Shown piece after piece: positions 86 through 27,365 of a stretch of 64,000 nucleotides of DNA. The stretch is from Candidatus Delongbacteria bacterium. Its GTDB lineage: Bacteria; UBA4055. Positions within the stretch are counted from its first letter, which is position 1. The number at the start of each line of letters is the position of its first letter. The notes beneath the pieces were generated by a model that saw only the letters and a list, made by a program, of their open reading frames with translations, ran no database searches and was not told the DNA's origin. The stretch spans positions 1-64,000 of the forward strand of contig JAFGVM010000024.1 of NCBI GenBank assembly GCA_016937995.1, read 5' to 3'. The position numbers and the translations under genes were made by a program.

Positions 86-568
86 TTAACAGTTATCGCT
101 ACCTGAAAGCTGTGTATCAAGCTTATCGTTATTCTCGATGTTGTCAACCCATATATCGTTTAAAATAGTTACTCCATTCAATATCGCATCAATTTTTTTT
201 TCGGGTACATTTTCGAACATAGTATTGAAATAATTCATAGTAATTTCATAAAGTTCTTTTGATGTTTTTAGGCCTTTCGGTGTCAATGTAACATTAATAC
301 CACGCCTGTCCTTGGGATCCATATCTCTTCGCAATATACCCGCTTCCTCTAAAGATGCTACAATTCTTGTCACTCCCCCTGATGTAATATTCAAGCGTTC
401 AGCCAAATCTTTAACCGATAAAATATCTGCATCAAAATATTGTTTTAAGCAATTTAGTTCTGAACAGGTGACTTTTAATTTTGCTGCGATCTTTTTATCC
501 TTGAATTGACAATTGATCTTCATCATATTCATTATTTGAGATATTATAGCTATTTTATTTTTATCCAT
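86..568 (-). CDS. MarR-family redox-type regulator (paralogue 1)
   Basis: This is a 160-residue winged-helix MarR regulator. The recognition region around SVKDLAERLNITSGGVTRIV and the wing DRRGINVTL are clear. The ATG at 568 is preferred over an upstream in-frame TTG at 625, because that TTG lies inside the gene's own -35 box and the ATG has an AAAGG ribosome site. Four cysteines (residues 20, 35, 40 and the C-terminal residue 160) occur at matching places in the paralogue at 24353-24838, and both proteins end in DNC. This suggests thiol or Fe-S sensing, which is inference. The gene is divergent from the DUF134/DUF5320/ORP-like genes, which it probably regulates together with itself through an overlapping operator. 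Confidence 0.9.
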   Translation of the reverse strand: MDKNKIAIISQIMNMMKINCQFKDKKIAAKLKVTCSELNCLKQYFDADILSVKDLAERLNITSGGVTRIVASLEEAGILRRDMDPKDRRGINVTLTPKGLKTSKELYEITMNYFNTMFENVPEKKIDAILNGVTILNDIWVDNIENNDKLDTQLSGSDNC

Positions 569-596: not shown

Positions 597-625
597 AATT
601 TATTGACACTCTCAACTATTGTCAA
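597..625 (-). promoter_or_regulatory. marR1 promoter with overlapping inverted-repeat operator
   Basis: A TTGACA box (620-625) and TAAATT (597-602) are separated by exactly 17 bases. The spacer ends in TGTCAA, so the pair TTGACA-N11-TGTCAA forms an inverted repeat across the promoter. The promoter of the second marR gene (24865-24893) has the same boxes, spacing and most of the spacer. An autoregulatory MarR site is the simplest reading. Confidence 0.7.
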
Positions 626-688
626 GTGAAATATTTGACATTTTAACTTTGTTTTATTTTCGCCTCTCCGTTTTTTCTCATTTTACAC

Positions 689-2336: not shown

Positions 2337-2356
2337 AGTATTTGAGGTTAAATATA

Positions 2357-4221: not shown

Positions 4222-4249
4222 CAACTTATTAAAAAAAAGGAGAAATAAA

Positions 4250-4588: not shown

Positions 4589-4652
4589 AAATCAATGAAT
4601 TTAGAAGATGTATATATTCTAAATAGTATAAATAAAATTAGAAGGTAACAAA

Positions 4653-6002
4653 ATGAAGACGGATGTAGTAGTTATAGGCAGTAGCGCAGCCGGAATGGTT
4701 GTAGCTGCAACAGGTAAGAGAGTTCATCCTGAAAAAGATTTTACTGTGGTTACAAAACAACCAAAGACAATGATTCCATGCGGAATTCCATATATCTTTG
4801 GTTCTGTTGAAACCTCGAACAATAATATTCTTCCTGCAGAAAAAGTTTTTGAGCAGGCTGGAATTAAGGTAATACATGATGTGATTACTAAAATTGATCG
4901 AAAAAACAAAACTTGTGAATTAAAAAGCGGGGATAAATTAGAATACGATAAATTGGTCATCGCTACTGGTTCTACACCCCACAAACCTACGTGGCTAAAA
5001 GGACTTGAGAAAAATAATGTTTTCTTTGTTCCAAAGGATAAAATTTATCTTGATGATATGCAGGATCAATTAAAAGATTGTAAAGATATTGTTACGATCG
5101 GTGCAGGCTTCATTGGAGTTGAAATGTCTGATGAACTGAATAAAAACGGTAAGAATGTAACATTGATAGAAAAAATGCCTAATATTCTGGGATTAGCATT
5201 TGACAAAGAAATTTCAGAAAAAGTTGAAAAGATTTTAAAGGAAAGAGGAGTTAATCTTCTGACAGGAATAAGTGTTAAAGAAATTGTAGGATCAGAATCA
5301 GCTGAAGGTGTGCTACTCGATAATGGTGATATTTTAAAAGCAGATGCCATAATTATTTCGATGGGTTACAGACCAGATGTTAAATTAGCTAAAAAAGCAG
5401 ATATTCCGTTAAACGATCAAGGATTTATTCGGGTGGATGAATATATGAGAACTTCAGACCCAGATATTTTTGCTATTGGTGACTGTGCTGAAAAAAGAGA
5501 CTTTGTAACTAGAAAACCAAATCCCGTAATGCTTGCTTCAACTGCTTGTGCGGAAGCTCGTACGGCTGGAATGAATCTATTTAAACTTTCTGTTATTAAA
5601 ACTTTTAGCGGAACTATCTCTATCTTTTCTACAGCTATAGGAAATAGCGGTTTCGGAGTGGCCGGATTAACAGAATCTCAGGCGATTGCTGAAGGATTTG
5701 AAATTGTTACAGGATATGCTGAAGGTATTGACCGACATCCAGGTTCTCTTGCAGATTCACACCAGCAGTGTGTTAAATTGATCGTTGGTAAAGAATCAGG
5801 TGTAATTCTCGGTGGAGAAGCTTGCGGTGGTTTATCAACAGGAGAGCTTGTAAATATGATCGGAATTGTTATTCAAAACAGAATGAATATCAATTCACTA
5901 TTTACTGCTCAAATAGGTACTCACCCACTCCTAACAGCTTCACCTGCAGGATATCCGTTGTTGAAAGCAGTAGAAAATGCATTAATAAAATGGAGAAAGT
6001 AA
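4653..6002 (+). CDS. CoA-disulfide reductase / NAD(P)H-dependent sulfur reductase-like flavoprotein
   Basis: A 449-residue single-cysteine pyridine nucleotide-disulfide oxidoreductase. The FAD motif GSSAAG is at 9-14, the redox-active Cys43 lies in MIPCGIPYIFG, a second dinucleotide motif GAGFIGVE is near 150, the FAD-binding IFAIGDCAE follows, and there is a C-terminal dimerisation domain. The family reduces CoA disulfide, CoA persulfide, polysulfide or oxygen with NAD(P)H. The archaeal CoA-dependent sulfur reductase has this architecture. The C-terminus lacks a rhodanese domain. Its position among Fe-S and cofactor-binding proteins points to sulfur or redox metabolism; the substrate cannot be fixed from sequence. 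Confidence 0.85.
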   Translation: MKTDVVVIGSSAAGMVVAATGKRVHPEKDFTVVTKQPKTMIPCGIPYIFGSVETSNNNILPAEKVFEQAGIKVIHDVITKIDRKNKTCELKSGDKLEYDKLVIATGSTPHKPTWLKGLEKNNVFFVPKDKIYLDDMQDQLKDCKDIVTIGAGFIGVEMSDELNKNGKNVTLIEKMPNILGLAFDKEISEKVEKILKERGVNLLTGISVKEIVGSESAEGVLLDNGDILKADAIIISMGYRPDVKLAKKADIPLNDQGFIRVDEYMRTSDPDIFAIGDCAEKRDFVTRKPNPVMLASTACAEARTAGMNLFKLSVIKTFSGTISIFSTAIGNSGFGVAGLTESQAIAEGFEIVTGYAEGIDRHPGSLADSHQQCVKLIVGKESGVILGGEACGGLSTGELVNMIGIVIQNRMNINSLFTAQIGTHPLLTASPAGYPLLKAVENALIKWRK

Positions 6003-6038
6003 TTATTTAAGATATAATATTTGTAAATCGGAGACTAA

Positions 6039-6434
6039 ATGGAATTAATAACAGCATTTGCAACTGATGACGGTAAATTATTTATGGACAGGCATTTCGG
6101 TGATGCGAAGTACTATGATATTTATAGGATTTCTGCATCTGGTATGGAGCTTATTAAAAGAATTGATAATACCACTGAAGAAGAGGAAGAAGAAATTCAT
6201 GCTGATCCAAGGAAAGCTAAAGACATTTCAGGGTTACTGAAAGAAGAAAATGTACAAGTTGTTGTTTCTAAAGTTTTTGGTCCGAATATTAAAAGGATAA
6301 AGAAAAATTTCGTTTGTGTCGTTATGGAGAAAGAAAAAGAAATTTTTGATAGTATCGCGAAAATGCAAAGTTTTTTTGACATTATTGTTAGGGAATGGGA
6401 AAAAGGTGAAGACAGATTGATCTTTAAAATTTAA
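6039..6434 (+). CDS. COG1433 dinitrogenase-cofactor/ORP-like protein 3
   Basis: A 131-residue NifX/ORP-family protein recognised by the N-terminal MDRHFGDAKYYDIYRI and by VVVSKVFGPNIKRI in the second half. An acidic run of six glutamates (about residues 48-53) and a longer C-terminal helix distinguish it from the other two. It lies 36 bases after the flavoprotein and 13 bases before the CGGC gene, hence the same operon. It is more divergent than the other two family members. Confidence 0.82.
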   Translation: MELITAFATDDGKLFMDRHFGDAKYYDIYRISASGMELIKRIDNTTEEEEEEIHADPRKAKDISGLLKEENVQVVVSKVFGPNIKRIKKNFVCVVMEKEKEIFDSIAKMQSFFDIIVREWEKGEDRLIFKI

Positions 6435-6447
6435 TTCAGGTGACAAA

Positions 6448-6891
6448 ATGAAAACTAAAGTCGGTATTATAATTTGTGACCGGTATAAAAGTTGTGCCGG
6501 TGGAAAATGCTTTAGATCTTTACAGGAAAGAGATGGGGCATTCAGTATTTATCCTAAAGAAGAGGATGTTCAAATAGTTGGATATACTTCTTGCGGTGGT
6601 TGTCCCGGTGGGAATATTGAATATACTCCTGAAGAAATGATCAAGAACGGGGCAAATGTAATTCATCTTGCAACAGGAATGGTTGTCGGATATCCTCCAT
6701 GCCCCTTTATTGATCATTTTAGAAAATTTATTACTGAAAAATATGGAATAAAAGTTATTGTGGGGACTCATCCGATACCTGAGAAATATTATAAGACTCA
6801 TCATGAACTGGGTACATGGAATTCCCCTGAATGGCAGGAGATGATATCTCTTGTTTTACCTGATCAAAAAACCAGATTAAAGTACGATTAA
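6448..6891 (+). CDS. CGGC-domain protein
   Basis: A 147-residue protein of the CGGC family, named for the motif at residues 49-52 here. Further cysteines at 10, 16, 21 and 85 (YPPCPFI) are characteristic of the family, which is expected to bind metal or an Fe-S cluster and is found mainly in anaerobes. The last gene of the locus, followed by a strong terminator. Biochemical role unknown. Confidence 0.85.
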   Translation: MKTKVGIIICDRYKSCAGGKCFRSLQERDGAFSIYPKEEDVQIVGYTSCGGCPGGNIEYTPEEMIKNGANVIHLATGMVVGYPPCPFIDHFRKFITEKYGIKVIVGTHPIPEKYYKTHHELGTWNSPEWQEMISLVLPDQKTRLKYD

Positions 6892-12785: not shown

Positions 12786-12820
12786 AATTGTCAATTGCAA
12801 ATTGTCCATTATCAATTTTT
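12786..12820. repeat. Period-7 array at the CBS-gene stop codon
   Basis: Successive units AATTGTC, AATTGCA, AATTGTC, CATTATC, AATTTTT. The last overlaps the stop codon of the minus-strand CBS gene by two bases. Confidence 0.75.
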
Positions 12821-13265
12821 ATATATTGATCCCGTAAGGATTTTGAATATATTCCCTGAGTTCTTTCACTTCAGTCTCTGACTGCTCAAGAACCTGTTTT
12901 AGAACATCACCGATGGATAATATTCCAATTAGCTTTCCATCTTCAACTACAGGAAGATGCCTGACTCTCTTGTTGATCATCACATCCATTGCATAGCTTA
13001 ATCTTTCATCTTTAGTTGCAATGATGAGATCCTCTTTCGGAGTCATAATATCTTTGATCTTCATTGTTTCAGGATGACCGTCACATTTGTAAAGAACATC
13101 TCTCTCAGTTACGATACCCTGAAGTTTTGAACTGCCGTCAGTAACAACTAAAGATCCAACTCTATGTTTTCCGAATAACTCAACCGCTTCTTTTGCAGTA
13201 CTGTTAATATCGATATTAAAAGTCTCTGTACTTTGTTTCTTCTTTAGTAAATCTGTTAATTTCAT
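12819..13265 (-). CDS. CBS-domain pair protein
   Basis: A 148-residue protein consisting of two CBS domains (about 8-65 and 75-135), with GSLVVTDGSSKLQGIVTERD and VRHLPVVEDGKLIGILSIGD as the core motifs. CBS pairs bind adenine nucleotides or NAD and often sense energy state. It follows the flavoprotein gene by 14 bases with an AGGAG ribosome site, so it belongs to the Mbx-like operon and may report nucleotide status to it; that role is inference. Confidence 0.9.
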   Translation of the reverse strand: MKLTDLLKKKQSTETFNIDINSTAKEAVELFGKHRVGSLVVTDGSSKLQGIVTERDVLYKCDGHPETMKIKDIMTPKEDLIIATKDERLSYAMDVMINKRVRHLPVVEDGKLIGILSIGDVLKQVLEQSETEVKELREYIQNPYGINI

Positions 13266-13279
13266 ATCACATCTCCTGT

Positions 13280-15073
13280 TTATTTACTGCTCAAATATTC
13301 ATCTATACCTTTTGCTGCAGTATGACCGTTTGCAATACCGTTGATAACATCAGGACCTTTTATAATATCTCCACCAACGAATAACCAAGGAAGTGATGAT
13401 TGATATTTTTCATTAACAACAATCCTGCCTCTATCGCTGAATTCAAGTTTATCTTTAATAGATTCTAGGTAAGATAAGTCCATACCCTGACCGATTGATT
13501 CAACAACCATATCTGCCGGGAAGAATTTCTTTTGAGCTTCATCAAATTTAGGACTGAATCTTCCTTCTTCATCGAATACTGAAAGACATTTAACAACATT
13601 TAGACCTGTTACTTTACCGTTTTCAATTACAATCTCTTTCGGTCCCCATCCGGGATCAATGATACATTTTTCTTCTCTTGCTTCAACAACCTCTTCCCTG
13701 TCAGCAGGCATAATATCTTCAGTCTCAAGTGAAGTTGCAGTCACATCTACCTTACCATATTTTTTATTCTGCAGTCTTGCTAACGATCTGGTGATATCCA
13801 TCGCAACATTACCACCACCGATAACAACTACTTTTTTATCAACGCGGATCTCATTTCCAAGAGATATCTCTCTCAGAAGATCAGTTGCAAAGTAAACATT
13901 CTCATGTTCAGAACCCGGTATTCTTGTACTTCTACCAAGGTGCAAACCTGTGCCTGAGAAGACCGCATCATAATCTTGTTCAAGTTGTTCTATTGTAATA
14001 TCTTTACCTATACGAACATTATATTCTATCTCGACACCGCAGGATAAAATATAGTTAATATCTTTATCGATCTGGTCGTAAGGAAGACGATATTCAGGAA
14101 TACCGTATCTCATCATTCCACCTGCAGCAGGAAGTGCTTCAAATATCTTAATTGCATATCCCATTCTTGATAAGTAATAAGCAGCTGAAAGGCCTGAAGG
14201 TCCTGAACCTATTATTGCTACTTTTTTACTCTTTGGAGTGATCTCTAAGCCTCGTTCAAGAACTTCTTTATATTTACTCTCAGGAACTTGATCAGCGATA
14301 TATCTTTTTAACCAACGAATAGATAAAGGTTCCCCTTTGTGACCGATCGCACAGACAGTTTCACACCTATGAGTACATATTCTACCACATATCTCCGGCA
14401 ATGGATTAGTTTCATACATTATTCTGAGACCTTCTTCCATATCGTCATTTCTGATAGCTTTGATATATTCAGGGATAGCCATATGAGCAGGACAAGTTGC
14501 AGTACAAAGGCCACAATCAATACATCTGTCCGCTTCCGCTTCCGCCTGTTCTTTAGAATAACCTTTTACGAATTCAATGAATGATTTATCCCTTTCTTCA
14601 GGATGAAGCTCAGCCATGTCAACTCTATCGTAATTGTTAAGATCATAATTTTTAGGTTTAGTCCACCCAAGTTCATTATTATCCCACTCTTTTTTGTCAT
14701 ATCCGGGAATAAATCTGAAAACATCCGGATCAGAATCGATCCAGGTATATTCGTTAGATAAAGTCAGAGAATTTGTCGAACAAACATCAACACATAAAGC
14801 ACACCAGCAACACCTGCCGTAATCAACCATTGGCCTTAATCCACTGTCACCGTCTTTAGTTTCAATACCTTCAACAGGAACCATATCTATAGCAGCATTC
14901 TGACAAATCTCTTCGCATGCTCCACAACCAATACATTTATCCAGCTCGTTTTTGTGGAATCCTCTATATCTTGGAGCACCCGGTCTGTCATTGAACGGAT
15001 CTTTAACAGTAACCGGATCCTTAAATACTTTCTTCCAAGCTAAAAATGGTGATAATACATCTTTTATACTCAT
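13280..15073 (-). CDS. Ferredoxin-GltD/NfnB-type FAD/NAD(P) oxidoreductase subunit
   Basis: A 597-residue fusion. The N-terminus has a NuoI/MbxN-like 2[4Fe-4S] domain (Cys47, 50, 53, 57 and 88, 91, 94, 98). A GltD-type N-terminal domain binds two more clusters (Cys184, 187, 190, 194 and 229, 233, 237, 241). Then come FAD motif GSGPSG at about 289, NAD(P) motif VVVIGGGNVAMD and the closing FVGGDIIKGPDVINGIANG. GltD and NfnB proteins exchange electrons between NAD(P)H and Fe-S clusters. Here the fusion replaces the plain NuoI subunit, so the complex could couple ferredoxin to NAD(P). A GAGG site precedes the ATG. From memory, Thermotoga Mbx loci also carry a GltD-like gene. Confidence 0.9.
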   Translation of the reverse strand: MSIKDVLSPFLAWKKVFKDPVTVKDPFNDRPGAPRYRGFHKNELDKCIGCGACEEICQNAAIDMVPVEGIETKDGDSGLRPMVDYGRCCWCALCVDVCSTNSLTLSNEYTWIDSDPDVFRFIPGYDKKEWDNNELGWTKPKNYDLNNYDRVDMAELHPEERDKSFIEFVKGYSKEQAEAEADRCIDCGLCTATCPAHMAIPEYIKAIRNDDMEEGLRIMYETNPLPEICGRICTHRCETVCAIGHKGEPLSIRWLKRYIADQVPESKYKEVLERGLEITPKSKKVAIIGSGPSGLSAAYYLSRMGYAIKIFEALPAAGGMMRYGIPEYRLPYDQIDKDINYILSCGVEIEYNVRIGKDITIEQLEQDYDAVFSGTGLHLGRSTRIPGSEHENVYFATDLLREISLGNEIRVDKKVVVIGGGNVAMDITRSLARLQNKKYGKVDVTATSLETEDIMPADREEVVEAREEKCIIDPGWGPKEIVIENGKVTGLNVVKCLSVFDEEGRFSPKFDEAQKKFFPADMVVESIGQGMDLSYLESIKDKLEFSDRGRIVVNEKYQSSLPWLFVGGDIIKGPDVINGIANGHTAAKGIDEYLSSK

Positions 15074-15111
15074 GTTAATCCTCTATATAAAAACTTTCTA
15101 TTCTTGGTTTA

Positions 15112-15181
15112 GAGTTTTGAGTTGTTGGTTTTGAGTTATTGGGAACTTATCCTCACAACTCACAACCCGCAACTCACAACT
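15112..15181. repeat. Two facing period-7 arrays inside the Mbx-like operon
   Basis: GAGTTTT, GAGTTGT, TGGTTTT, GAGTTAT (15112-15139) face CACAACT, CACAACC, CGCAACT, CACAACT (15154-15181). The two groups are roughly complementary and could fold into a hairpin in the mRNA. The last unit covers the stop codon of the large-subunit gene. Confidence 0.8.
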
Positions 15182-16358
15182 ATCTCTCAATTTCCGGTGG
15201 GCATGTAGCTAATGATACCATCAACGATGAAACATCTGATATATTAGCGTTTACCAATATTTTTTCAAGTAACACCATTGCTGAATTATAACTTGGTCCT
15301 CTAAGATTTATTCTTCTAGGGTATTCAGTACCGTCAGTTACCATATAGAAACCGTATTCACCTCTGGATGATTCTATTCTTTTGTAAGTTTCACCTTTAG
15401 GTATTTTCCAATGAAGAACATTCGGTGTCTTGGCTCTGATCTCACCTTTTTCCGGCATTTTAGCCATGATCTGCCTTATAAGATCTACTGACGCTTGAAG
15501 ATCATGCCATCTTACCCTTGATCTTGCATAAATATCTGAATCTTTCTCAGTATGAGGTTCAAAGTCTAATTTATCATATTTCAAATACGGATAATCTTTT
15601 CTGACATCTCTCATTATTCCAGCTGCTCTGGCATTAGGACCAACAACACTGTATTTATCGATCCAATCCTTTTCAATTACTCCAACACCTTTTGTTCTCT
15701 TCTTGAAAACAGCATTACTGAACATCAAATTATCTATATCAACGACAAATTCATCAATTTTTTTTAATACTTCTTCCATTCTTTCTTTGAATCCGGAAGG
15801 TAATAGTCCTCTAACTCCACCAGGTGCAATATACATGTGATAAACCCTGCCACCTGTAAGTTCTTCAAATCTGTCCAGCATCAGGTCCCTGATATAAACA
15901 CCCCACTGAACTCCCATTCCAAGACTCATAGTCCCACCTTGTCCGGGAACTCCTCTAAGCAGTATAGTTACTCTTGCCATTTCAAGCACTAATGTTCTTA
16001 GCCATTCTGCCATCTCTGGGACCTCAATACCTCCAAGTTCTTCAACAGATGCAGCAAGCAAATATTCATTAATATCAGGCTCGGGAACGCACATTCTGAT
16101 GCAGATAGGAAAACACTGGATGAATTTTCTTCTTTCCATCAATTTTTCAAAAGCTCTGTACAGATAACCTACATGTGTCTTTGATTTAATAACTTCATCA
16201 CCGGAAACTGTAAGTTCAAGTGCCATATTTCCTGTAACTCCAGGATGGTTCGGCCCTTGCCAGATCTTTACATATTTTTGGGAATCAAGATCGAAATCTA
16301 ATGTTCCGTCATCTTTCATAGTAGGAAATTTTGATCTGTCTTCTTTTATATTGAACAT
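15180..16358 (-). CDS. Mbx/MBS-like large subunit (NuoD/hydrogenase-large-subunit family, no NiFe site)
   Basis: A 392-residue protein of the complex I 49-kDa/[NiFe] group 4 family. The first metal-binding motif reads RMCVPEPD (Cys90, Glu93) and the C-terminal one LATCPPEIER (Cys386, Glu389). In [NiFe] hydrogenases both are CxxC. Here the first Cys of each pair is kept and the second, bridging one is Glu. A hydrogenase is therefore unlikely and a Mbx/MBS-type or other electron-transfer role is favoured. Additional Cys82 and Cys86 lie next to the first motif. An AGAGGA site precedes the ATG. The C-terminus ends at the position where hydrogenases are processed. Confidence 0.85.
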   Translation of the reverse strand: MFNIKEDRSKFPTMKDDGTLDFDLDSQKYVKIWQGPNHPGVTGNMALELTVSGDEVIKSKTHVGYLYRAFEKLMERRKFIQCFPICIRMCVPEPDINEYLLAASVEELGGIEVPEMAEWLRTLVLEMARVTILLRGVPGQGGTMSLGMGVQWGVYIRDLMLDRFEELTGGRVYHMYIAPGGVRGLLPSGFKERMEEVLKKIDEFVVDIDNLMFSNAVFKKRTKGVGVIEKDWIDKYSVVGPNARAAGIMRDVRKDYPYLKYDKLDFEPHTEKDSDIYARSRVRWHDLQASVDLIRQIMAKMPEKGEIRAKTPNVLHWKIPKGETYKRIESSRGEYGFYMVTDGTEYPRRINLRGPSYNSAMVLLEKILVNANISDVSSLMVSLATCPPEIER

Positions 16359-16390
16359 CTACTGTCCTCTAATTTTGTTTTATTATTATG

Positions 16391-16427
16391 TGCTGTGAGA
16401 CGTTGCGGGGCAACGTCTCTACGAGCA
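16391..16427. repeat. GAGACGTTGC palindrome between nuoC-like and nuoD-like genes
   Basis: GAGACGTTGC and GCAACGTCTC pair around GGG (16397-16419), extended by TGCT/AGCA at 16391-16427. Related copies lie at 24326-24353 and 56721-56742. It is inside a single operon and could influence the relative amounts of the two flanking products. Confidence 0.8.
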
Positions 16428-16428
16428 C

Positions 16429-16992
16429 CTAACCCTGATCCGGATACAATTTTGATTTCATGTATTCCTTTGTATCATAACTCTTCCTTCCTTCTCTCGG
16501 GAAGAAATTATCTGTAGCATATTTCAATGTATCAAAATCTCTTCTCATAGGTGGGATATCATCCCAGTCTTCCAGTACAAAATCATCATTAACACCGGGA
16601 CTGCCGGGAAAATCGATGCCGAATAATTCTTTAATTTCTCTCTGATCTGTTTGTGCATGTATCCATAGATGATGAATAGAATCCATAACAGGATTATCTC
16701 TGTCAATATCAACTCGGATAGCAATATCATATTTGTTTACAGGATGATTTAAAATGTATGTCAGCTGAAATTTGTTCTCTTCCAGCCAGTCAACACTTGA
16801 CAGCATTATCAAATGTGTAAAACCTTCAAGCTCTTTCAGATAATTCAGAATATCGACAAGTAATTTTTTCCCGATAGAAAAAAACAGCAGATCATCCCTT
16901 TTCTGAAGAACATCCGTGATCTCATATTTACTTTTTATCTTTTCTAATATTTCATTCATATCTTTTAATCCTATTTTAATTCCTATATCCAT
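16429..16992 (-). CDS. NuoC/30-kDa-like subunit
   Basis: A protein of 187 residues from the ATG at 16992, or 176 residues from the internal ATG at 16959, which has a better-placed AGGA site. The complex1_30kDa signature is clear: WIHAQTDQREIKELFGIDFPG at about 115-135 and PPMRRDF near 150. This subunit tethers the large subunit to the Fe-S arm of complex I-like enzymes. It is separated from the NuoB-like gene by a 130-base spacer containing a long imperfect hairpin. Confidence 0.85.
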   Translation of the reverse strand: MDIGIKIGLKDMNEILEKIKSKYEITDVLQKRDDLLFFSIGKKLLVDILNYLKELEGFTHLIMLSSVDWLEENKFQLTYILNHPVNKYDIAIRVDIDRDNPVMDSIHHLWIHAQTDQREIKELFGIDFPGSPGVNDDFVLEDWDDIPPMRRDFDTLKYATDNFFPREGRKSYDTKEYMKSKLYPDQG

Positions 16993-17018
16993 ATAATCCC
17001 AAAATTGCTTTAAACGAA

Positions 17019-17106
17019 GATTTACAAGGAAGAGTGATATTACTTCGAAATGGAGCTTGGTTAACCCAAGTGACTTGAGAAGGAATTCACTCTGACGAAG
17101 TAAATC
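17019..17106. repeat. Imperfect 88-base hairpin between nuoB-like and nuoC-like genes
   Basis: Outer arms GATTTAC (17019-17025) and GTAAATC (17100-17106), middle arms AGAGTGA (17031-17037) and TCACTCT (17087-17093), and inner arms CTTGG and CCAAG (17056-17070) nest inside one another. I see no coding potential. It may be a small mobile remnant or an mRNA-processing structure. Confidence 0.65.
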
Positions 17107-17122
17107 AAAGTTTAAAAAATTT

Positions 17123-17767
17123 TTACCAGTTGTAATCGGGCATATCCCATCCTTTGATTACCTTCTTTTGATTAGCCTTATACCAGTCAAATCTCTCAGC
17201 ATAATCATTTGCACCTTCGGCTTTACCTGCTCTGATCCTTTTCTTCAGCTCTACAAACCCTGAAAGAATTGCTTCAGGTCTTGGCATACATCCCGTGATA
17301 TAAACATCTACCGGAATATAGTGATCCAGTCTGTTGATAGTATTAAAACTATCATAATACATTCCACCGTTAATCGTACAACTGCCTAATGCTATTATAT
17401 ACTTAGGACCCTGCATTTGCTCATAAGCTCTGATAACTCTTTTCAAAGTTTTCACAGCCAAATATCCTGAAATAATAAACACACCTGCTTGTCTTGGAGT
17501 AGGTCTCATCTGAACACCGTATCTGAACATATCAAATCTTGGAGTTGTCAAAGGCGGTAATTCAATACTACCACACCCTGTTCCCCATCCAAGTACCCAT
17601 AGAGAATTCGATCTTGCCCAGTTGAAGAATTTTTCAAGTAACGGATGTGCAGGCTCCTGAACTTCAGGTCTTTTATCACAAAAGTATTCTTTCATCGGAT
17701 CAACTGTAAATACTTCACCATCAGGTGCGGTTACAGTTCTCTTTTTTAAATCATCCATTCGAGTCAT
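17123..17767 (-). CDS. NuoB/hydrogenase small-subunit-like protein
   Basis: A 214-residue protein of the complex I 20-kDa/[NiFe] small subunit family that carries the terminal [4Fe-4S] cluster. The later ligand motifs ALGSCTINGG and ITGCMPRPEAI are normal. The first motif is GTGCGSIE, with one Cys where complex I has CC and hydrogenases have CxxC, so only three of four expected ligands are evident in place. Cys30 lies in a family-unusual N-terminal extension of about 50 residues and might substitute. A GAGG site precedes the ATG. Confidence 0.88.
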   Translation of the reverse strand: MTRMDDLKKRTVTAPDGEVFTVDPMKEYFCDKRPEVQEPAHPLLEKFFNWARSNSLWVLGWGTGCGSIELPPLTTPRFDMFRYGVQMRPTPRQAGVFIISGYLAVKTLKRVIRAYEQMQGPKYIIALGSCTINGGMYYDSFNTINRLDHYIPVDVYITGCMPRPEAILSGFVELKKRIRAGKAEGANDYAERFDWYKANQKKVIKGWDMPDYNW

Positions 17768-17782
17768 TTATTTAAACCTCTA

Positions 17783-18703
17783 TTAGTTAATATATGTCGC
17801 ATAAATCACACCTAAAACACCAATTACTAAAGGTACTTTCACGAACCATGCCACTGATTGATCTACTCTGTATCTCGGAAATACTACTCCAACGAACACT
17901 GTGGTAAAGTATATGAAGAAAGTTTTTACTATAAATTCTATCCAGTTCGTAGCTCCACCAAAGAATAAATTCATAAAAAGTGCAGATTCTACAATATGAA
18001 GGATAGCTCTGTTGGATTGAAGCATTCCAAGATAAGTAGAGTGATATTCAGTTGGTGGACCGATCGGTATTTCCTGAGGTGCCATTACTACATTAAAAGG
18101 AGCATGTCGCATAATTCCGAGAAAAGATAACATTCCTGCTAGAGTCGCAACGGGATTCTGAAATAATGTCCAGTGAAGGATTCCACCTTGTTGTGCTGCT
18201 ACTATATTATAAACTGATAATGTTTGATATTGAATTGCAATAGCAATTATAGCGAGTGTAAATGAAATCTCAACAGTCGTAAATTGTGCAAGCCCTCTAC
18301 TGATCCCGATAGTAGAATTAGGATGTCCCGCTTCTCCGGCACCTAAAGCCATTCCAAGCATTCCGAAAAATTGGAAGTACATTAGTAATACAATATCACC
18401 TGTGAATGAAAAATTCTTAAAATATATTGAACCGAATATCATAGGCATGAATAAGAAAAGTCCTATTCCGCCACCCAATCTGAAAATTGGTCCAAGATAA
18501 AACATAATACCATGAGTTATTTGTGATCTTTTAGCCAAATTTTTAATAATGTCAAAATATGACTGATATACCGGAATCCCATATCTTCCTGCTACTCTGG
18601 CAACTATCTTCCTCATAACCCCTGACTGAAGAAGCCCGTAGTTAAAAACTATGAATAAACCTAATAGGGAATATAGTATTCTTGATGTAAGTGTCAATTC
18701 CAT
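17783..18703 (-). CDS. NuoH/HyfC/MbhM-like membrane subunit
   Basis: A 306-residue integral membrane protein with about eight hydrophobic segments. SYFDIIKNLAKRS, GAGEAGHPNSTIGI and PQEIPIGPPTEYHS correspond to the quinone-site loops of NuoH and their hydrogenase counterparts, which join the soluble arm to the ion pump. Its first base overlaps the last of the upstream antiporter gene, consistent with coupled translation. Confidence 0.9.
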   Translation of the reverse strand: MELTLTSRILYSLLGLFIVFNYGLLQSGVMRKIVARVAGRYGIPVYQSYFDIIKNLAKRSQITHGIMFYLGPIFRLGGGIGLFLFMPMIFGSIYFKNFSFTGDIVLLMYFQFFGMLGMALGAGEAGHPNSTIGISRGLAQFTTVEISFTLAIIAIAIQYQTLSVYNIVAAQQGGILHWTLFQNPVATLAGMLSFLGIMRHAPFNVVMAPQEIPIGPPTEYHSTYLGMLQSNRAILHIVESALFMNLFFGGATNWIEFIVKTFFIYFTTVFVGVVFPRYRVDQSVAWFVKVPLVIGVLGVIYATYIN

Positions 18704-21700
18704 TAAAATATCCCTCCGTTAAGAATAAAGTAGAAAAATACGACAAAACCGATTATGTGCATAATATATACCTGTGCATTACCGTTATAGAATTTTCTGA
18801 AGAAATCTGAACTCGAATGAAAAAGATCAGTTATAAAATTCCAGAAATTTGTTACTAGTGGCAAGACAAGAAAACCAAGAGCTTTTCTGTAATGTGAGAA
18901 CATATTATATGAAAAATGTGCAGTTTGAGGACTTTCAGGTCTTTCGGCAGAATATACAATGTTGAACATTTCAACTTTTGTTGCTTTCCTGCTTGCAAAT
19001 AATAGGAATCCTAATAAAACAGCGAACATGACACATACTATTATCATTATATAGAACGGATCCCAAACACCGAATAATTTACCATTTACAAAAGTTGATG
19101 CGGCATCACCATTCCAGACAACAGTGTTCTCAGGTAATATTTCTTTAAAATATAAACCTACTTTCTCCAGTATCATCCTTGGTTTTGATGATAAGACCAT
19201 CAGAGTAGCTATTATCAAATATTGAGGTATCAAATACCAAACTGATACTTCTGTCATTTTTCTATGCTTATCTTTTATAGGTCCTAAGAAAATCGAATAT
19301 ATTAGTTTGAAAAGATATAAGAAAGCTACAACTCCAGAGAAGGCAATAATTGCACCCTGGAAATACCATCCTTTTAAGATAAAAGCGTTATAAAGAAGCC
19401 ATTTTCCACCGAATCCTGCCAATGGAGGAACACCTGACAATGCAATTATACCGATAAGAACTGAAATAAAAGACATCGGCATTTTTTTTATCAAACCACC
19501 CATTTCATACATTTTATGAGTTTTGAGTTTTAATACTATCGCACCTACTGCAAGGAATAATAAGGCTTTATACAAGAAATGAGTGATCGAATACCAAATT
19601 GCTGCCAGCCAGCCTACATTTGTCATTATTGCTAGAGCAAATAAGATATAACCTAACTGAGCTATACTTGAATAAGCCAGTAATTTCTTCGCATCTTCCT
19701 GGAATGAAGCTATTAAATTTCCAAGTAAAGCTGTAATTGCTCCTACCCAGCCTAATATGTAAAATAGATTTGAAACATCGTTATTTCTCATTGCTATGAA
19801 TAGAATTATCAGTCCGAATACTCCGGCTTTTAGTAGTACTGCAGAAACCATTGGAGAAACATCACTTTCTGCTTCAGCGTGAGCTCCCGGCAACCAGATA
19901 TGAAGTCCGATAGAAGCAGTTTTTGTCATAAAACCCAGTGCAAGAAGTATAAATACCATAGTTGCATAAATATGAACCTCCGACAATGAAGTTAATAAAA
20001 TACTTCCGGTTTCAGCTCCGGATAAAGCAAATCCGAATAAGATCAGATAAGCACCACCTGCAGAGAATAATATATAACTCAATGCGTGAGACATTGATCT
20101 TTTACCTCTCAGGATCAGGAAGTACGAACCTGCTGTCATTATTTCCCAGGCAAAAAAGAATTGAAAGAAAGTTTCAGCTTCGATCAATCCGATCAGTCCT
20201 ACATACATCATAGCAGCAACAGGATAGAATCCTATTCTCTTCCCTTTTACGCTATAACCGGGAATAAATGTTAATATTCCACCGACTAAGAATATCAAAG
20301 CGAATATCAGCTTTAAAGTATCTAAACCGGGAACAAGTATATATCCATAGTATGATACGGCGATCATAACCAGTGTATTCTTAATATATACTGGTAAGAA
20401 GTCTATTAAGAATAGTATTCCCACAAATGCTAAAGGTATGAAATTAATTGACAGACCAGCATCAAATGATCTGGTAATATAGAACCCTGCGACATAAAGC
20501 AATAGAGTAACAATATAGACCGGATGTAACTGATGTTGAGGTTTTTCTACTTTTTCTTCACTGTCTTCCAGTTTAAGAATGTAACCGAACCATCTGAATA
20601 AATAAAGGACTTCAAGTATCGATGCTAATATCACCAGACTTATCCATAAGAACGATCCATTCTCAGCCAGTATCATTACTAAAGACCATTTTGCGGCTAA
20701 AGATGGAAATGGAGGGAAACCCATCAGTGCTAAGATAAATGTTCCGAACATGAAAATCAGAATAGGATGTTTCTTTATCTTTACCCAGTCTTGAATTTTC
20801 TCAGCTTTTACAATTCCTGACAACCAGAACAAACCTGCTTTAGCTAAGAAATGACTGATAAGTAATCCAAAGAATATTTTCTCAAAATTATCACCGAGTA
20901 TATCTTTTGATGCTATTACAAATACCAATAATCCGATCTGACCTATCGAAGAATAACCTAACAATCTATTCGTACTCTTCTGCATAATTGCGAAAAGGTT
21001 TGATACTACAAAAGTAAGCACACCGATTATAACGATCATCTTTGTTAGATCAATTGATGCTAAAGGAAGTACTTTGTATAGAACAAATAACAAAGCCGTT
21101 GCAGATGTTGCTGAGATCATTGCAGAAATGCCTGTATCAGATCCTTCATAAACATCTAAGGCCCAACCGTTAGCAGGGAAAACTTTTAATTCAATTACAA
21201 CAGAGAATATCAGTATGAATACGCCAACAAATAATATTTGTGATGAACCTGCAGCTGATACAGCAGCGATCATTCCATCTAAGTTCAAAGTTCCTGTTTT
21301 AGAATATATAAGGATTATACCAAGAAGTAAAAATACTGATGCAATCCCACCTGCAATCATATATTTAAATCCTGCAGACAGAGATTTTAATCTTAAGTCC
21401 ATACCTATAAGGATATACGTTGCAATTGATGTAATTTCCAGGAAAACAAAAATATTGAATATATCTCTGGTCAATACTAATCCGTTCATTCCGAGTATGA
21501 AGAGTAAAAATACTACTAATGCCTGAATTCCGTTCTCTGCAAAATATTTAAACGAATAGATCGCTCCAAGTAAAGCACCAAAATTGATCAATGTAATTAG
21601 AACCGCTTCATTTAACCCCATCTGTAAATTGATCGACATCGGAGGTTTAAATCCGGCAGTGAAGATCTGTACAGCTTGTTGACCATCGATCAGAAAAGCT

Positions 21701-21846
21701 GACAACCATTGGTAACTGATCGCAGTAACTGCTATTATTCCTAAAAAGAATATTGTTACTGTTACTTTTATTCCGGCCTTATTTATTGACGGCAATAAAA
21801 ATCCAAGACCTAGTAAGATTGCTATTATATATATTGGATTTACCAT
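18703..21846 (-). CDS. Fused double Mrp/NuoL-type antiporter subunit
   Basis: A 1047-residue membrane protein made of two antiporter-like modules. Module one (about 1-480) has IFNIFVFLEITSIATYI with the conserved TM5 Glu and IELKVFPANGW with the TM7 Lys. Module two (about 490-900) repeats the pattern with FFFAWEIMTAGSYF and TKTASIGLHIWLPGAHAEAE. A long C-terminal tail with further helices follows. In archaeal Mbx two separate genes encode the two antiporter subunits; here they are one polypeptide, with no frameshift or stop between them. It overlaps the mnhC gene by seven bases. Confidence 0.9.
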   Translation of the reverse strand: MVNPIYIIAILLGLGFLLPSINKAGIKVTVTIFFLGIIAVTAISYQWLSAFLIDGQQAVQIFTAGFKPPMSINLQMGLNEAVLITLINFGALLGAIYSFKYFAENGIQALVVFLLFILGMNGLVLTRDIFNIFVFLEITSIATYILIGMDLRLKSLSAGFKYMIAGGIASVFLLLGIILIYSKTGTLNLDGMIAAVSAAGSSQILFVGVFILIFSVVIELKVFPANGWALDVYEGSDTGISAMISATSATALLFVLYKVLPLASIDLTKMIVIIGVLTFVVSNLFAIMQKSTNRLLGYSSIGQIGLLVFVIASKDILGDNFEKIFFGLLISHFLAKAGLFWLSGIVKAEKIQDWVKIKKHPILIFMFGTFILALMGFPPFPSLAAKWSLVMILAENGSFLWISLVILASILEVLYLFRWFGYILKLEDSEEKVEKPQHQLHPVYIVTLLLYVAGFYITRSFDAGLSINFIPLAFVGILFLIDFLPVYIKNTLVMIAVSYYGYILVPGLDTLKLIFALIFLVGGILTFIPGYSVKGKRIGFYPVAAMMYVGLIGLIEAETFFQFFFAWEIMTAGSYFLILRGKRSMSHALSYILFSAGGAYLILFGFALSGAETGSILLTSLSEVHIYATMVFILLALGFMTKTASIGLHIWLPGAHAEAESDVSPMVSAVLLKAGVFGLIILFIAMRNNDVSNLFYILGWVGAITALLGNLIASFQEDAKKLLAYSSIAQLGYILFALAIMTNVGWLAAIWYSITHFLYKALLFLAVGAIVLKLKTHKMYEMGGLIKKMPMSFISVLIGIIALSGVPPLAGFGGKWLLYNAFILKGWYFQGAIIAFSGVVAFLYLFKLIYSIFLGPIKDKHRKMTEVSVWYLIPQYLIIATLMVLSSKPRMILEKVGLYFKEILPENTVVWNGDAASTFVNGKLFGVWDPFYIMIIVCVMFAVLLGFLLFASRKATKVEMFNIVYSAERPESPQTAHFSYNMFSHYRKALGFLVLPLVTNFWNFITDLFHSSSDFFRKFYNGNAQVYIMHIIGFVVFFYFILNGGIF

Positions 21847-22202
21847 TTTAAGTCCTTGTAATCGTTAATTGACAATGATTTCTTCTGTTGGTATAATCTT
21901 ATTACGAAGGTTAGCATCAGAGCATTTACCGCCACGCCAATAACAATAGCTGTAAGAACCAGTGCCTGAGGTACAGGATCAACTATTAACGAAGATGCCT
22001 TGCTAAGCTCTACCGCAGAGTCTAAGATAGGAGCAGTTCTTCCGTCTATAAATCCAAAAGCGACCATCACAAGCTGAACACCTGTCTCTACTATTGCTAA
22101 TCCTAAAATTATCTTTATCATATTCTTTTGGGTCAACATTCCCCAGAAACCTATCAATATGAGAGCAAATCCTGTTATATGAACTATAGTTGTTATATTC
22201 AT
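21840..22202 (-). CDS. MnhC/MrpC-like (NuoK family) subunit
   Basis: A 120-residue protein with three membrane helices. MIKIILGLAIVETGVQLVMV and PQALVLTAIVIGVAVNALML match NuoK/MrpC, the latter with the characteristic ending of helix 3. Its ATG overlaps the stop of the upstream gene (ATGA). Confidence 0.92.
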   Translation of the reverse strand: MNITTIVHITGFALILIGFWGMLTQKNMIKIILGLAIVETGVQLVMVAFGFIDGRTAPILDSAVELSKASSLIVDPVPQALVLTAIVIGVAVNALMLTFVIRLYQQKKSLSINDYKDLKW

Positions 22203-22900
22203 TCAAGCTCCCCCTTCATATTGTCCAATATACTCGCCAGTTCAGTTCCTACTTTCAATCCTACAAGTGTATAGATCAGTGGTATAGTTCCAGCACTTAA
22301 AATAGTTCCAAAAGTTCCAAGTGGTAAAATTCTATTATCCAGGAAGTTATCTGCTCCGAGTATAACGAGACCTAAAACACCGATAAGGACATAGAAGATT
22401 CCCGAAAATGATTCTATTAAAACAAATACTTTATGATTGATCTTAAATGAACTATCTGCCAAGAACATTAACATTACAGCAGATGCTATAGCTGCTCCAC
22501 CCTGAAATCCACCACCAGGTGATAAATGCCCATTTATGAATATATATGCACCAAACATTGTTATTATTGGTACCAACAGTTTTGAACCTGTCTTCAATAT
22601 TTCACTGGCTGCTCTATTCTTTATTCCTGAATCATTTTTCTTTTTCTTTCTTCTGAGTAATAAAGCAATACCAGTTCCTGCCATAAATAATACAGTAACT
22701 TCACCCAGTGTATCTAAGCCTCTATAAGTTACAACAATTGCAGTAACCAGATTCATTGCTCCAAGATCTGATGCTCCCTGTTCTGCATAAGTCTTTGCAA
22801 CACCTGTCAGATCATAATTCGGTGCAACATTCGTCGCTACTTTTAATAATATGAAAAACAGTGATATTACTAATAATAAAGGTATCAGTCTTTTAATCAT
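22199..22900 (-). CDS. MrpA-C-terminal/MrpB-like fused subunit
   Basis: A 233-residue protein from the ATG at 22900 (GGAGGA site); a longer reading from 22936 is less likely. The N-terminal part (to about 90) contains YRGLDTLGEVTVLFMAGTG, typical of the MbhE/MrpA C-terminal segment. The C-terminal part has GHLSPGGGFQGGAAIASA, the MrpB/MbhF signature. In many Mrp systems these are separate genes, so this is a small fusion. It overlaps the preceding gene by eight bases. Confidence 0.88.
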   Translation of the reverse strand: MIKRLIPLLLVISLFFILLKVATNVAPNYDLTGVAKTYAEQGASDLGAMNLVTAIVVTYRGLDTLGEVTVLFMAGTGIALLLRRKKKKNDSGIKNRAASEILKTGSKLLVPIITMFGAYIFINGHLSPGGGFQGGAAIASAVMLMFLADSSFKINHKVFVLIESFSGIFYVLIGVLGLVILGADNFLDNRILPLGTFGTILSAGTIPLIYTLVGLKVGTELASILDNMKGELE

Positions 22901-23150
22901 TTTCTTCCTCCACATCTTTTGTTTTGTGAAGTGCATATAAAAATATCAAAGTAGATAAACCTGCACCGATAGCAGCTTCTGTCATTGCAACATCAGGTGC
23001 CTGCATCAATAGATACAATATACTTGCAAATAAACTTACTACTCCTACTGCGATGATCGAAGATATCAAATCCTTCACATGCATTGCTAATACTGCCGCA
23101 ATGATCATTGCTAAACCCATCAGTATGAAAATGCCTTGTTGTAATTCCAT
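22893..23150 (-). CDS. MbhD/DUF4040-like subunit
   Basis: An 85-residue protein with three hydrophobic segments and the QAPDVAMTEAAIGAG motif of DUF4040 (the MrpA-derived 'hydrogen subunit' MbhD). The ATG at 23150 overlaps the previous stop codon by one base (TGATG), while a TTG one codon earlier is not needed. Confidence 0.88.
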   Translation of the reverse strand: MELQQGIFILMGLAMIIAAVLAMHVKDLISSIIAVGVVSLFASILYLLMQAPDVAMTEAAIGAGLSTLIFLYALHKTKDVEEEND

Positions 23151-23494
23151 CAATCTACCTCCACTTCGGTACTTTCTTTCTCTTTCAGCTTATCAGCTAC
23201 AGAACCTTTTGTCAAAGGAATTCCTTTGAAATGTGCTGCTCTAGCTAATGCATGACTTGAAATAGGATTTGTTAAAGCTATGAACATTATTATTACGAGT
23301 ATCTGACCGATCCATTCGTAATGACAGATTCCGATTCCTAATAATGTTAAAATTGTTCCTAAAGTAGTTGCTTTAGTTCCTGCCTGCATCCTGTTGTAAA
23401 GATCTGGCATTCTAAATACTCCCAAAGCTCCGAGAAATAAGAATATTGAACCTATTAATGTTATTATTGATCCTAAAATTCTGTACCATTCCAT
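23150..23494 (-). CDS. MnhG/MrpG-like subunit
   Basis: A 114-residue protein with three helices and the MrpG motifs GVFRMPDLYNRMQAGTKATT and TNPISSHALARAA. A strong AAGGGGGG ribosome site lies before the ATG, one base after the end of mnhF. Confidence 0.92.
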   Translation of the reverse strand: MEWYRILGSIITLIGSIFLFLGALGVFRMPDLYNRMQAGTKATTLGTILTLLGIGICHYEWIGQILVIIMFIALTNPISSHALARAAHFKGIPLTKGSVADKLKEKESTEVEVD

Positions 23495-23495
23495 T

Positions 23496-23765
23496 TTATA
23501 GCCCCCCTTCTAAATAACGGGCTACTGCGACTACACCTATGAAACTTAAGATAGCATAGACCATTCCTACATCCAGGAATATCACCCTTTCTGACATACA
23601 CGCTATCAGTGTAATTAATGAAATGGAAATCACTGTAAATGTATCCAGCGCTACGACTCTATCTGCCATACTTGGACCTATGATCAGTCTCAGTGTCGCA
23701 AGTATTATCCCTGCTGATACAAAATAAGTTGATATTTGTAATAATATCTCCGGTAAGTTAGCCAA
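23496..23765 (-). CDS. MnhF/MrpF-like subunit
   Basis: An 89-residue protein with three helices and the MrpF motif LIIGPSMADRVVALDTFTV. It starts with TTG directly after a near-perfect GGAGGTGATC ribosome site and overlaps mnhE by eight bases. No usable ATG exists in frame upstream. Confidence 0.92.
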   Translation of the reverse strand: MANLPEILLQISTYFVSAGIILATLRLIIGPSMADRVVALDTFTVISISLITLIACMSERVIFLDVGMVYAILSFIGVVAVARYLEGGL

Positions 23766-24246
23766 AGATCACCTCCAGATATTTTTCGAAATTTGCCACG
23801 ATTTTCTCTGTTGCTGTTTTTTCATCGATATTAGTAACATCGATCCAGTGTATATATAATATATCTTCATCTATATCTACTGTCAAAGTTCCGGGAGTTA
23901 ATGTTATTGAATTTGCCAATATCATTCGACCCATTGCTGATTTCAATTTTGTTTTCACTGTAACTATCCCTGGATTGATAGGGATCTTAGGAGAAACAAC
24001 TCTTCGAGCTACATCGAAATTTGCCTTTATTATTTCAATGAATAGGAATATTACATACCAGATAGAATATATCCACTTTTTGGGAGACAACATTGGTTTG
24101 AACAACGATCTGTTATAGATAATACTGATAACTAAAGCTATGAAGGCAATTATCAATATATTATACAAATCAGTAGTACCTGTCCAAATAAAATAGAACA
24201 ATGTGAGAATCCCCGTCGAAAATATCACCTTTATAATTCTATCCAT
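23758..24246 (-). CDS. MnhE/MrpE-like subunit
   Basis: A 162-residue protein from the ATG at 24246, which has an AGAGGT site. An upstream extension reaches into a repeat element and is not real. Two to three hydrophobic helices are followed by the soluble tail with LANSITLTPGTLTVDI and EDILYIHWIDV, characteristic of MrpE. It is the first antiporter gene of the operon, 106 bases downstream of the second marR. Confidence 0.9.
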   Translation of the reverse strand: MDRIIKVIFSTGILTLFYFIWTGTTDLYNILIIAFIALVISIIYNRSLFKPMLSPKKWIYSIWYVIFLFIEIIKANFDVARRVVSPKIPINPGIVTVKTKLKSAMGRMILANSITLTPGTLTVDIDEDILYIHWIDVTNIDEKTATEKIVANFEKYLEVIFG

Positions 24247-24276
24247 ATATACCTCTAAATCGTTATTTGTTGTTTT

Positions 24277-24353
24277 GTCATTGCGATCCCGATAAATCGG
24301 GAGTGGCAATCTTGTTTTCGTAATTGTAAGACCTTGCAGCGCAACGTCTCTAC
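24277..24353. repeat. Two REP-like elements between marR2 and mnhE
   Basis: GTCATTGCGA...GTGGCAATC (24277-24311) encloses a CCCGATAAATCGGG core. It is followed by GTAAGACCTTGC...GCAACGTCTCTAC (24326-24353), which ends at the stop codon of the marR2 gene. The first shares its outer ends with 28401-28432, the second with 16397-16419. Confidence 0.8.
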
Positions 24354-24838
24354 TAACAATTATCGTTTCCTGACAAATTCTCACTGAATTTTTCTTTGTC
24401 CCTTTGCAACTTTGATGACCACACTTTATTAAGAAGATTTAGACCATTATATATTGTATCCTGATCTTGTTCATTAACTTCATCAAAGAGATCTTTGCAA
24501 TAATTTATGGTTATCTTTTTTAATTCTTTAACAAATACATTTCCTTTATCGGTCAGAGTAACATTTATTCCTCTTCTGTCATCTGGGGCCATATCTCTGC
24601 GCAATAGACCTGCTTCTTCCAAAGCAGCAACGATCCTTGTAACTCCACCGGAAGTTATATTCAATCTCTCGGCCAGATCCTTGACAGATATACTTTCTGA
24701 TTCAAAATACTGCTTCAGACAATTTAATTCAGAGCAAGTAAGATCCATTGATCTTGCAACTTTTTTATCTTTTAATTGACAATAAAGCTTCATTGAGCTT
24801 ATTATGTTTGAAATTTCGTTTACCCGACTTTGATTCAT
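24353..24838 (-). CDS. MarR-family redox-type regulator (paralogue 2)
   Basis: A 161-residue MarR protein closely similar to that at 86-568 over its whole length, including the HTH (SVKDLAERLNITSGGVTRIVA) and the wing. Cysteines 20, 35, 40 and the last residue (161) match the paralogue, and the tail is again DNC. It has an AAGGTG ribosome site. As the first gene ahead of the Mrp/Mbx-like operon and in the same direction, it is the obvious candidate regulator. It is divergent from the sigma-54-type activator. Cysteine-based sensing of sulfur or redox state is inference. Confidence 0.92.
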   Translation of the reverse strand: MNQSRVNEISNIISSMKLYCQLKDKKVARSMDLTCSELNCLKQYFESESISVKDLAERLNITSGGVTRIVAALEEAGLLRRDMAPDDRRGINVTLTDKGNVFVKELKKITINYCKDLFDEVNEQDQDTIYNGLNLLNKVWSSKLQRDKEKFSENLSGNDNC

Positions 24839-24864: not shown

Positions 24865-24893
24865 AATTTATTGATCTGCTCAACAATTGTCAA
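24865..24893 (-). promoter_or_regulatory. marR2/Mbx-operon promoter with operator
   Basis: TTGACA (24888-24893), a 17-base spacer and TAAATT (24865-24870). The stretch from -35 through the spacer shares most bases with the marR1 promoter, including TTGACAAT, GTTGAG and TCAATAAATTA. The conserved segment lies between the core boxes, where a bound MarR would block RNA polymerase. Confidence 0.7.
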
Positions 24894-24941
24894 GTTTTTA
24901 TTTTACTTTTTTTAATTGTTGTTTTGAAAATATTTTCACAC

Positions 24942-26882: not shown

Positions 26883-27365
26883 ATGCATACAGAAATTGTT
26901 AAATTAGATTTCCCTGAAGATGCAAACATCATCCTGGGCCAATCACATTTTATTAAAACTGTCGAAGATATTTATGAAGCTATGGTAAATACAGTACCAA
27001 ATATAAAGTTCGGTGTTGCTTTCTGTGAAGCTTCAGGTGAATGTCTGGTCAGATATCACGGAAATGATGAAGAACTTACAAAGATAGCTACAGATAATGC
27101 TTATAAAATTTCAGCCGGTCACAGTTTCATAATTGTTATGAGAGATGGTTTCCCGATAAATGTTTTAGGTAGGATCAAAGATGTACCTGAGGTATGCAGG
27201 ATATTCTGTGCAACTGCTAATCCAACCGAAGTGATAATTGCTTCTACTCATCAAGGTCGTGGAATTATGGGAGTTATTGACGGTTTTGCACCAAAGGGTA
27301 TTGAAAAGGAAGATGGGAAAAAATGGCGAAAAGATTTTTTGAGAACTATCGGGTATAAATTATAG
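26883..27365 (+). CDS. Adenosine-specific kinase family (DUF355) protein
   Basis: A 160-residue protein matching the adenosine-specific kinase family (PF04008) along its whole length: [18 protein letters not shown]-like N-terminus, [17 protein letters not shown], and [30 protein letters not shown]. The family is known from archaea and thermophilic bacteria, and its biochemical assignment rests on little evidence. It has an AAAGGAG ribosome site. It stands alone, between the repeat mosaic and a terminator. Confidence 0.88.

Follow-up and report, generated by a model that had tools for sequence, protein, structure and literature searches.

What does an Mrp-type ion pump do when its operon carries a GltD-type flavoprotein? 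We addressed this question for a 64,000-nucleotide stretch of Candidatus Delongbacteria DNA (assembly GCA_016937995.1, contig JAFGVM010000024.1), called the window below, in which 14 genes run along the minus strand from position 24838 to 12819 (Table 1). They encode a MarR-family regulator, 12 subunits and a CBS protein, in the order MarR, MnhE, MnhF, MnhG, MbhD, MbhE-MnhB, MnhC, a double antiporter, NuoH, NuoB, NuoC, NuoD, a NuoI-GltD fusion and CBS, and all of their reading frames are open. We tentatively propose, with confidence just short of even, that the products form an NAD(H)-linked, ion-translocating, Mrp-based oxidoreductase of the MBX/MBS type, in which the fusion of MbsN (NuoI) with GltD is the electron input and sulfane sulfur is the likeliest partner.

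An initial annotation of this DNA had the strand and gene order right, while its count of thirteen genes has to be raised to 14. Its statement that many genes overlap by 1 to 8 bases holds from MnhE to NuoH, where the single exception is a 1-base gap. The redox genes are separated by gaps of 14 to 163 bases. The listed MnhE start at 24384 is too early, and the start that matches homologues, 24246, leaves no overlap with marR. The MbhE/F and NuoC genes probably also start later than listed, at 22900 and 16959, respectively. The same gene order is found in dozens of other genomes, which excludes chance as an explanation for the operon.

That the operon encodes an Mrp/Mbx-type ion pump, as annotated, is borne out by its subunit set and its MBS matches. 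The Mrp-type membrane set is complete and is accompanied by two antiporter-like H units, the combination that marks MBX/MBS complexes. In a PDB sequence search with seven proteins (six from the operon plus a nearby CoA-disulfide-reductase-like flavoprotein), the top match of NuoD, NuoB, NuoH, MbhE-MnhB and both antiporter halves was the Pyrococcus furiosus membrane-bound sulfane reductase (MBS; 6u8y). For the NuoI part of the fusion, 6u8y_N was the top NuoI-type chain, ranked behind Nfn and GltD entries whose match lies in the remainder of the protein. NuoD scored 292 bits against MbsL, 175 bits against the best complex I chain and 121 bits against MbhL, so the large subunit is far nearer to MBS than to active hydrogenases. 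The four NiFe-binding cysteines of Group 4 [NiFe] hydrogenases are not all kept in NuoD; two of the four remain (C90 and C386, present in 78 and 67 of 87 relatives, respectively), the same pair as C85 and C385 of MbsL. The NiFe site is thus absent, as the initial annotation had it, and no [NiFe] hydrogenase large subunit is encoded anywhere in the genome. A hydrogenase was rejected on zero PF00374 matches genome-wide, Hyp maturation genes not having been searched for separately, and canonical complex I was rejected as well, the genome having just two NuoD homologues, both of them MBX. By alignment, the quinone-site residues His38 and Tyr87 (Nqo4 numbering) are replaced in NuoD by T42 and V91. 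The proximal cluster of NuoB has three cysteines, C65, C130 and C160 (C28, C93 and C123 of MbsJ), the first two conserved in 80 of 80 sequences and the third in 79 of 80, and Gly62 sits at the position of MbsJ C25. In MBS, catalysis does not depend on the residual cysteines, and polysulfide is proposed to react at the proximal cluster (PMC7684303).

We also found that the annotated GltD-type NAD(P) module is present, not in place of NuoI but fused to it, with NuoI at about residues 1 to 125 and GltD at about 144 to 597. The fusion matches PRK13984 (NF010590, "putative oxidoreductase") over its full length with 908 to 910 bits, just below the curated cutoff of 946. A structure model reached a predicted local distance difference test score of 88 with 62 sequences (37 with 7 sequences). 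We limit the fold statement to residues 144 to 597, because structure alignments give little coverage of the NuoI part. These residues fold like the large subunit of Nfn (5jfc_L; Z score, 46.5; root mean square deviation, 1.6 over 438 residues) and also resemble the corresponding part of dihydropyrimidine dehydrogenase (DPD). The Nfn partner NfnS is absent among the operon genes. Across 75 fusion sequences (one contig counted twice), 17 cysteines are invariant, and the sequence predicts 16 [4Fe-4S] ligands, plus C89. An extra cysteine, C229 (Thr in Nfn), and Lys256 (a Glu cluster ligand in Nfn) are present in all 75, which predicts an all-cysteine cluster. The phosphate-binding motif, YRR in Nfn, is SLE in the window fusion and YRR in the fusion of a second operon copy in the same genome; S/A/C-L-E occurs in 65 of the 75 sequences and YRR in the other 10. 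In assayed DsrL enzymes, the cofactor is NADP(H) where the motif is YRR and NAD(H) where it is replaced (PMC7596348), and by this motif the window copy is predicted to use NAD(H) and the second copy NADP(H). In the open-access literature we found no paper describing a GltD fusion with MBX; subscription literature was outside this scope, so absence is not proven.

In the proposed mechanism, NAD(H) would react at the GltD FAD, and electrons would then pass through the two [4Fe-4S] clusters of the GltD N-terminal domain and the two of the NuoI domain to the three-cysteine proximal cluster of NuoB. The substrate, most likely sulfane sulfur (polysulfide), would be reduced in the chamber between NuoB, NuoD and NuoH, its reduction would drive ions through NuoH and the two fused antiporter units, and MarR may sense the redox or sulfur state. 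We favor this mechanism because of the MBS matches, the three-cysteine cluster and the lack of quinone residues, together with the Nfn-like fold of the flavoprotein module, the SLE motif and the persulfide-reductase-like gene between the two operons. The order of the path is taken from homology, and we infer cofactor use, electron path, acceptor, direction and regulation, whereas gene content, relationships, motifs, the second copy and the mosaic described below are read from the sequence itself. Several points weigh against the proposal: electron transfer from NADH to polysulfide yields little energy, and ion coupling would be weak unless ratios were favorable; some hosts belong to genera of sulfur and iron oxidizers, in which the complex may run backwards; of 87 loci, only a few have a reductase-like neighbor; and an NSR-type function of the window flavoprotein is not separable by sequence from that of related NADH oxidases.

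The genome encodes RnfC, an FeFe hydrogenase, five POR-type matches and a NuoE/NuoF-type pair on a contig that also carries a GltD-like protein, a gene set that suggests an anaerobic fermentative life. RnfC and the POR-type matches bear on one of the two reactions that the initial annotation considered best fitting, ferredoxin:NAD(P) oxidoreduction (the other was sulfane-sulfur reduction). Ferredoxin would dock at the NuoI domain and electrons would exit to NAD+ (or NADP+) at GltD, coupled to ion export. The POR-type matches are in keeping with such an enzyme, MBS accepts ferredoxin electrons, and P. furiosus Mbx has been described as a ferredoxin:NADP+ oxidoreductase (PMC6349859). However, flow to NAD(P) need not pass the proximal cluster beside the pump, so coupling is hard to explain without an extra mechanism, and the RnfC gene suggests that the ferredoxin:NAD+ role is already filled. 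Because NAD(P) lies on the input side of NuoI and RnfC is encoded, this reaction fits less well than an NAD(H)-linked one at the proximal cluster, and we rank it second, as unlikely.

The fermentative and anaerobic look of the genome (FeFe hydrogenase, POR-type matches and RnfC) argues against mainly reverse operation, in which the ion gradient would push electrons from sulfide, persulfide or another chamber donor to NAD+ and so supply NADH. Relatives do occur in Thiohalocapsa marina and in metagenome-assembled genomes (MAGs) labeled Thiorhodovibrio, Sulfuritalea and Sideroxydans, and these groups are known to oxidize sulfur or iron. A motif of the NAD(H) type is also present in DsrL-1 of sulfur oxidizers (PMC7596348), and on balance we regard reverse operation as distinctly unlikely. 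We give still less weight to a different small-molecule acceptor, possibly reached through an FMN protein like dihydroorotate dehydrogenase (DHODH), which would amount to a DPD-like assembly tied to an ion pump. A DHODH-like PRK07565 gene adjoins the operon in 41 of 87 loci, and the GltD module folds like the matching part of DPD, but neighborhood alone does not prove a shared complex, and the window operon has no such neighbor. The only strong match in the genome (G000:C36:12361-13335) is on the contig of the second operon, 21 kb away from it.

That contig, C36, carries a complete paralogous operon. Identity between the two copies is 47 to 60% in the redox arm, 49% in the double antiporter and 91 to 99% in MnhF, MnhG, MbhD and MnhC. 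A tract from about 23541 to 22899 shows 92 to 98% DNA identity to the second copy and about 84 to 88% to the same operon in a sister MAG, G001; this greater closeness to the second copy indicates recent gene conversion. We compared the histories of the parts with quick trees that carry Shimodaira-Hasegawa-like approximate likelihood ratio support only, and with approximately unbiased (AU) tests whose groups were picked after the identities had been seen, so that the P values are indicative. In the NuoB-C-D tree, the window copy, G001 and an Aminicenantes copy fall among Bacteroidota and Chlorobiota, and grouping them with Delongbacteria-group copies is rejected (AU P = 0.0008). In the tree of small Mrp subunits, the window copy and G001 group with the second copy and other Delongbacteria-group copies (support, 99), and the test rejects a group made up of these two and the Aminicenantes copy alone (AU P = 0.025). 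In the antiporter and NuoH tree, all three adjoin the Delongbacteria-group copies. On this sequence evidence, the window operon is a mosaic of Delongbacteria-type membrane genes, a Bacteroidota-type redox arm and a tract homogenized with the second copy. Misassembly was rejected as the source of the mosaic, since G001, a second MAG of the genus, has continuous window-type genes (one contig runs from MarR into NuoH, another from NuoH through the fusion); we did not see a CBS gene at its operon. On the fusion's own tree a single change accounts for the SLE/YRR state, whereas the NuoB-C-D tree demands two or more, and the NAD(P) module was therefore probably exchanged or converted. In five loci from Bacteroidota and Chlorobiota (L046, L072, L076, L077 and L079), a window-type NuoD is paired with a fusion of the YRR type, which makes a second instance of a changed NAD(P) module.

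The two operons also appear to be linked in position and regulation. The (CACTTAT)n arrays at the end of C36 and at the start of the window contig (C66) have the same orientation and occur nowhere else in the genome, so the contigs probably abut. If they do, the two operons share a strand and flank a cluster of genes for MrpORP/NifX-like and MinD-type proteins, and MarR1, at the window's edge, probably heads the paralogous operon. About 41 bases before each start, the two MarR genes share a predicted promoter/operator motif, CTTGACAATWGTTGAG, with no other match at 0 or 1 mismatch in the genome (one for the reversed control); in four relatives, too, MarR is preceded by a similar site. A search with a guessed palindrome for MarR matched nothing. 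An alignment of six MarR homologues shows four invariant cysteines. The cluster between the operons (689 to 6891, plus strand) encodes, besides a PRK04217-like (DUF134-type) protein, small proteins of the MrpORP/NifX-like kind and two MinD-type ATPases into which ferredoxin domains are inserted; it surrounds the CoA-disulfide-reductase-like gene and resembles orange-protein type clusters. Relatives of this flavoprotein adjoin MBX operons in a few other genomes. In Thermococcales, mbs and nsr respond to sulfur under the control of SurR (PMC12162507), and Thermotoga maritima mbxA and nsr rise with sulfur (PMC9431562). By analogy, the parallel between mbs/nsr and the MarR pair with its flavoprotein supports a sulfur role without proving it. 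As a further idea, which we regard as improbable, two neighboring co-regulated complexes, one NADP(H)- and one NAD(H)-linked, with membrane genes kept alike by gene conversion, could share a sulfur pool and so perform ion-coupled NADH/NADPH balancing with sulfane sulfur as the carrier.

The layout is not peculiar to this lineage and reaches further than the initial annotation supposed: it recurs in several phyla, and NCBIfam has a curated model for the fusion. Scanning with the NuoD alignment gave a pattern match in at least 584 stretches, at least 536 of them encoding a NuoD relative. The best 80 of these at least 536 relatives come mostly from Bacteroidota and Chlorobiota, apart from some Pseudomonadota and a single Aminicenantes MAG, and across all of these groups the gene order is kept wherever the contig is long enough. 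Among the matches listed, the closest named record is Candidatus Delongbacteria MAG GLR157 (94% in NuoD), and cultured hosts include Prolixibacter bellariivorans and Thiohalocapsa marina. Besides the DHODH-like gene, neighbors in the 87 loci encode Crp/Fnr-type regulators (34 loci), CBS proteins (21), ferritin-like proteins (10) and CoA-disulfide-reductase-like flavoproteins (4). The layout is a widespread, well-conserved bacterial variant of a known complex type.

Table 1. Positions of the operon and associated features in the window
Feature	Position	Strand	Basis or remark
(CACTTAT)n array at contig start	1..76	+	Common only to the end of contig C36 (L021 15899-16023)
MarR1, second MarR	86..568	-	Alignment, shared operator, contig-end repeat
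Predicted MarR1 operator/promoter, CTTGACAATAGTTGAG	611..626	-	Same motif search as for MarR2
CoA-disulfide/CoA-persulfide-reductase-like flavoprotein	4653..6002	+	NCBIfam, PDB; between the two operons
Two-CBS-domain protein (likely regulatory)	12819..13265	-	Pfam CBS
NuoI (MbsN)-NfnL/GltD fusion	13280..15073	-	NCBIfam PRK13984, full length; model of 144-597
NuoD-like (MbsL)	15180..16358	-	Top PDB match 6u8y_L, 292 bits
NuoC-like (MbsK), probable start	16429..16959	-	Pfam Complex1_30kDa
NuoB-like (MbsJ)	17123..17767	-	Top PDB match 6u8y_J; C65, C130, C160; conservation
NuoH-like (MbsM)	17783..18703	-	Top PDB match 6u8y_M
Fused double antiporter, N half MbsH-like, C half MbsH'-like	18703..21846	-	6u8y_H on 7-310; 6u8y_X on 474-1032
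MnhC (MbsG-like)	21840..22202	-	Pfam Oxidored_q2; 94% to second copy
Fused MbhE-MnhB (MbsE-like), probable start	22199..22900	-	Top PDB match 6u8y_E, residues 13-242
MbhD (MbsD-like)	22893..23153	-	Pfam MbhD; 99% amino acid, 97% nucleotide identity to second copy
MnhG (MbsC-like)	23150..23494	-	Pfam PhaG_MnhG; 98% to second copy
MnhF (MbsB-like)	23496..23765	-	Pfam MrpF_PhaF; 91% to second copy
MnhE (MbsA-like)	23758..24246	-	Pfam MNHE
MarR2, MarR-family regulator heading the operon	24353..24838	-	Pfam MarR; upstream of the operon in four Delongbacteria-group relatives; alignment
Predicted MarR2 promoter/operator, CTTGACAATTGTTGAG	24879..24894	-	TTGACA box and inverted repeat into -10-like AATAAATTA

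Two other window features were observed outside these clusters. A gene at 7002 to 11258 (minus strand) encodes a 1,418-amino-acid, likely secreted protein with numerous near-identical WGDYDNDGDLDILLTG repeats (FG-GAP/VCBS-like), and one at 26883 to 27365 (plus strand) encodes an adenosine-specific kinase family protein (PF04008).

What is new here is the second complete operon, the SLE and YRR pair, the mosaic operon and the two MarR genes that share an operator motif unique in the genome and flank the CoA-disulfide/persulfide-reductase-like gene; most surprising are the mosaic and the pairing of an NAD-type with an NADP-type copy. This relative of archaeal MBS and complex I, which is widespread in bacteria and has its own fused NAD(P)H module, has so far had only the NCBIfam name "putative oxidoreductase". 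If it is an NADH-linked sulfur pump, a compact, NAD-coupled, complex-I-like machine would be present in several phyla, including in P. bellariivorans and T. marina. The SLE and YRR copies in one genome make cofactor choice directly testable, and the mosaic shows that the redox and membrane arms are exchangeable modules.

Among known systems, P. furiosus MBS (formerly MBX) is alike in its matching subunits, two residual NiFe cysteines, three-cysteine proximal cluster and lack of quinone residues. In contrast to MBS, the window operon has MbsN fused to GltD and MbsH fused to MbsH', a Gly for MbsJ C25, a CBS gene, and MarR instead of SurR. T. maritima MBX is a bacterial 13-subunit homologue of MBS that is upregulated with sulfur (PMC9431562). 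According to the initial annotation, a GltD-like gene may accompany Thermotoga Mbx as well, which would give the layout a precedent. The large subunit of NfnI, GltD and the N-terminal module of DPD share the fold of fusion residues 144 to 597; compared with Nfn, the window operon lacks NfnS, and its fusion has C229, Lys256 and SLE rather than YRR. DsrL, an NAD(P)H:acceptor oxidoreductase, likewise has a GltD core fused to a two-cluster ferredoxin domain and a YRR or non-YRR motif that tracks the cofactor, but its ferredoxin domain is C-terminal and its partner is DsrAB, not an ion pump.

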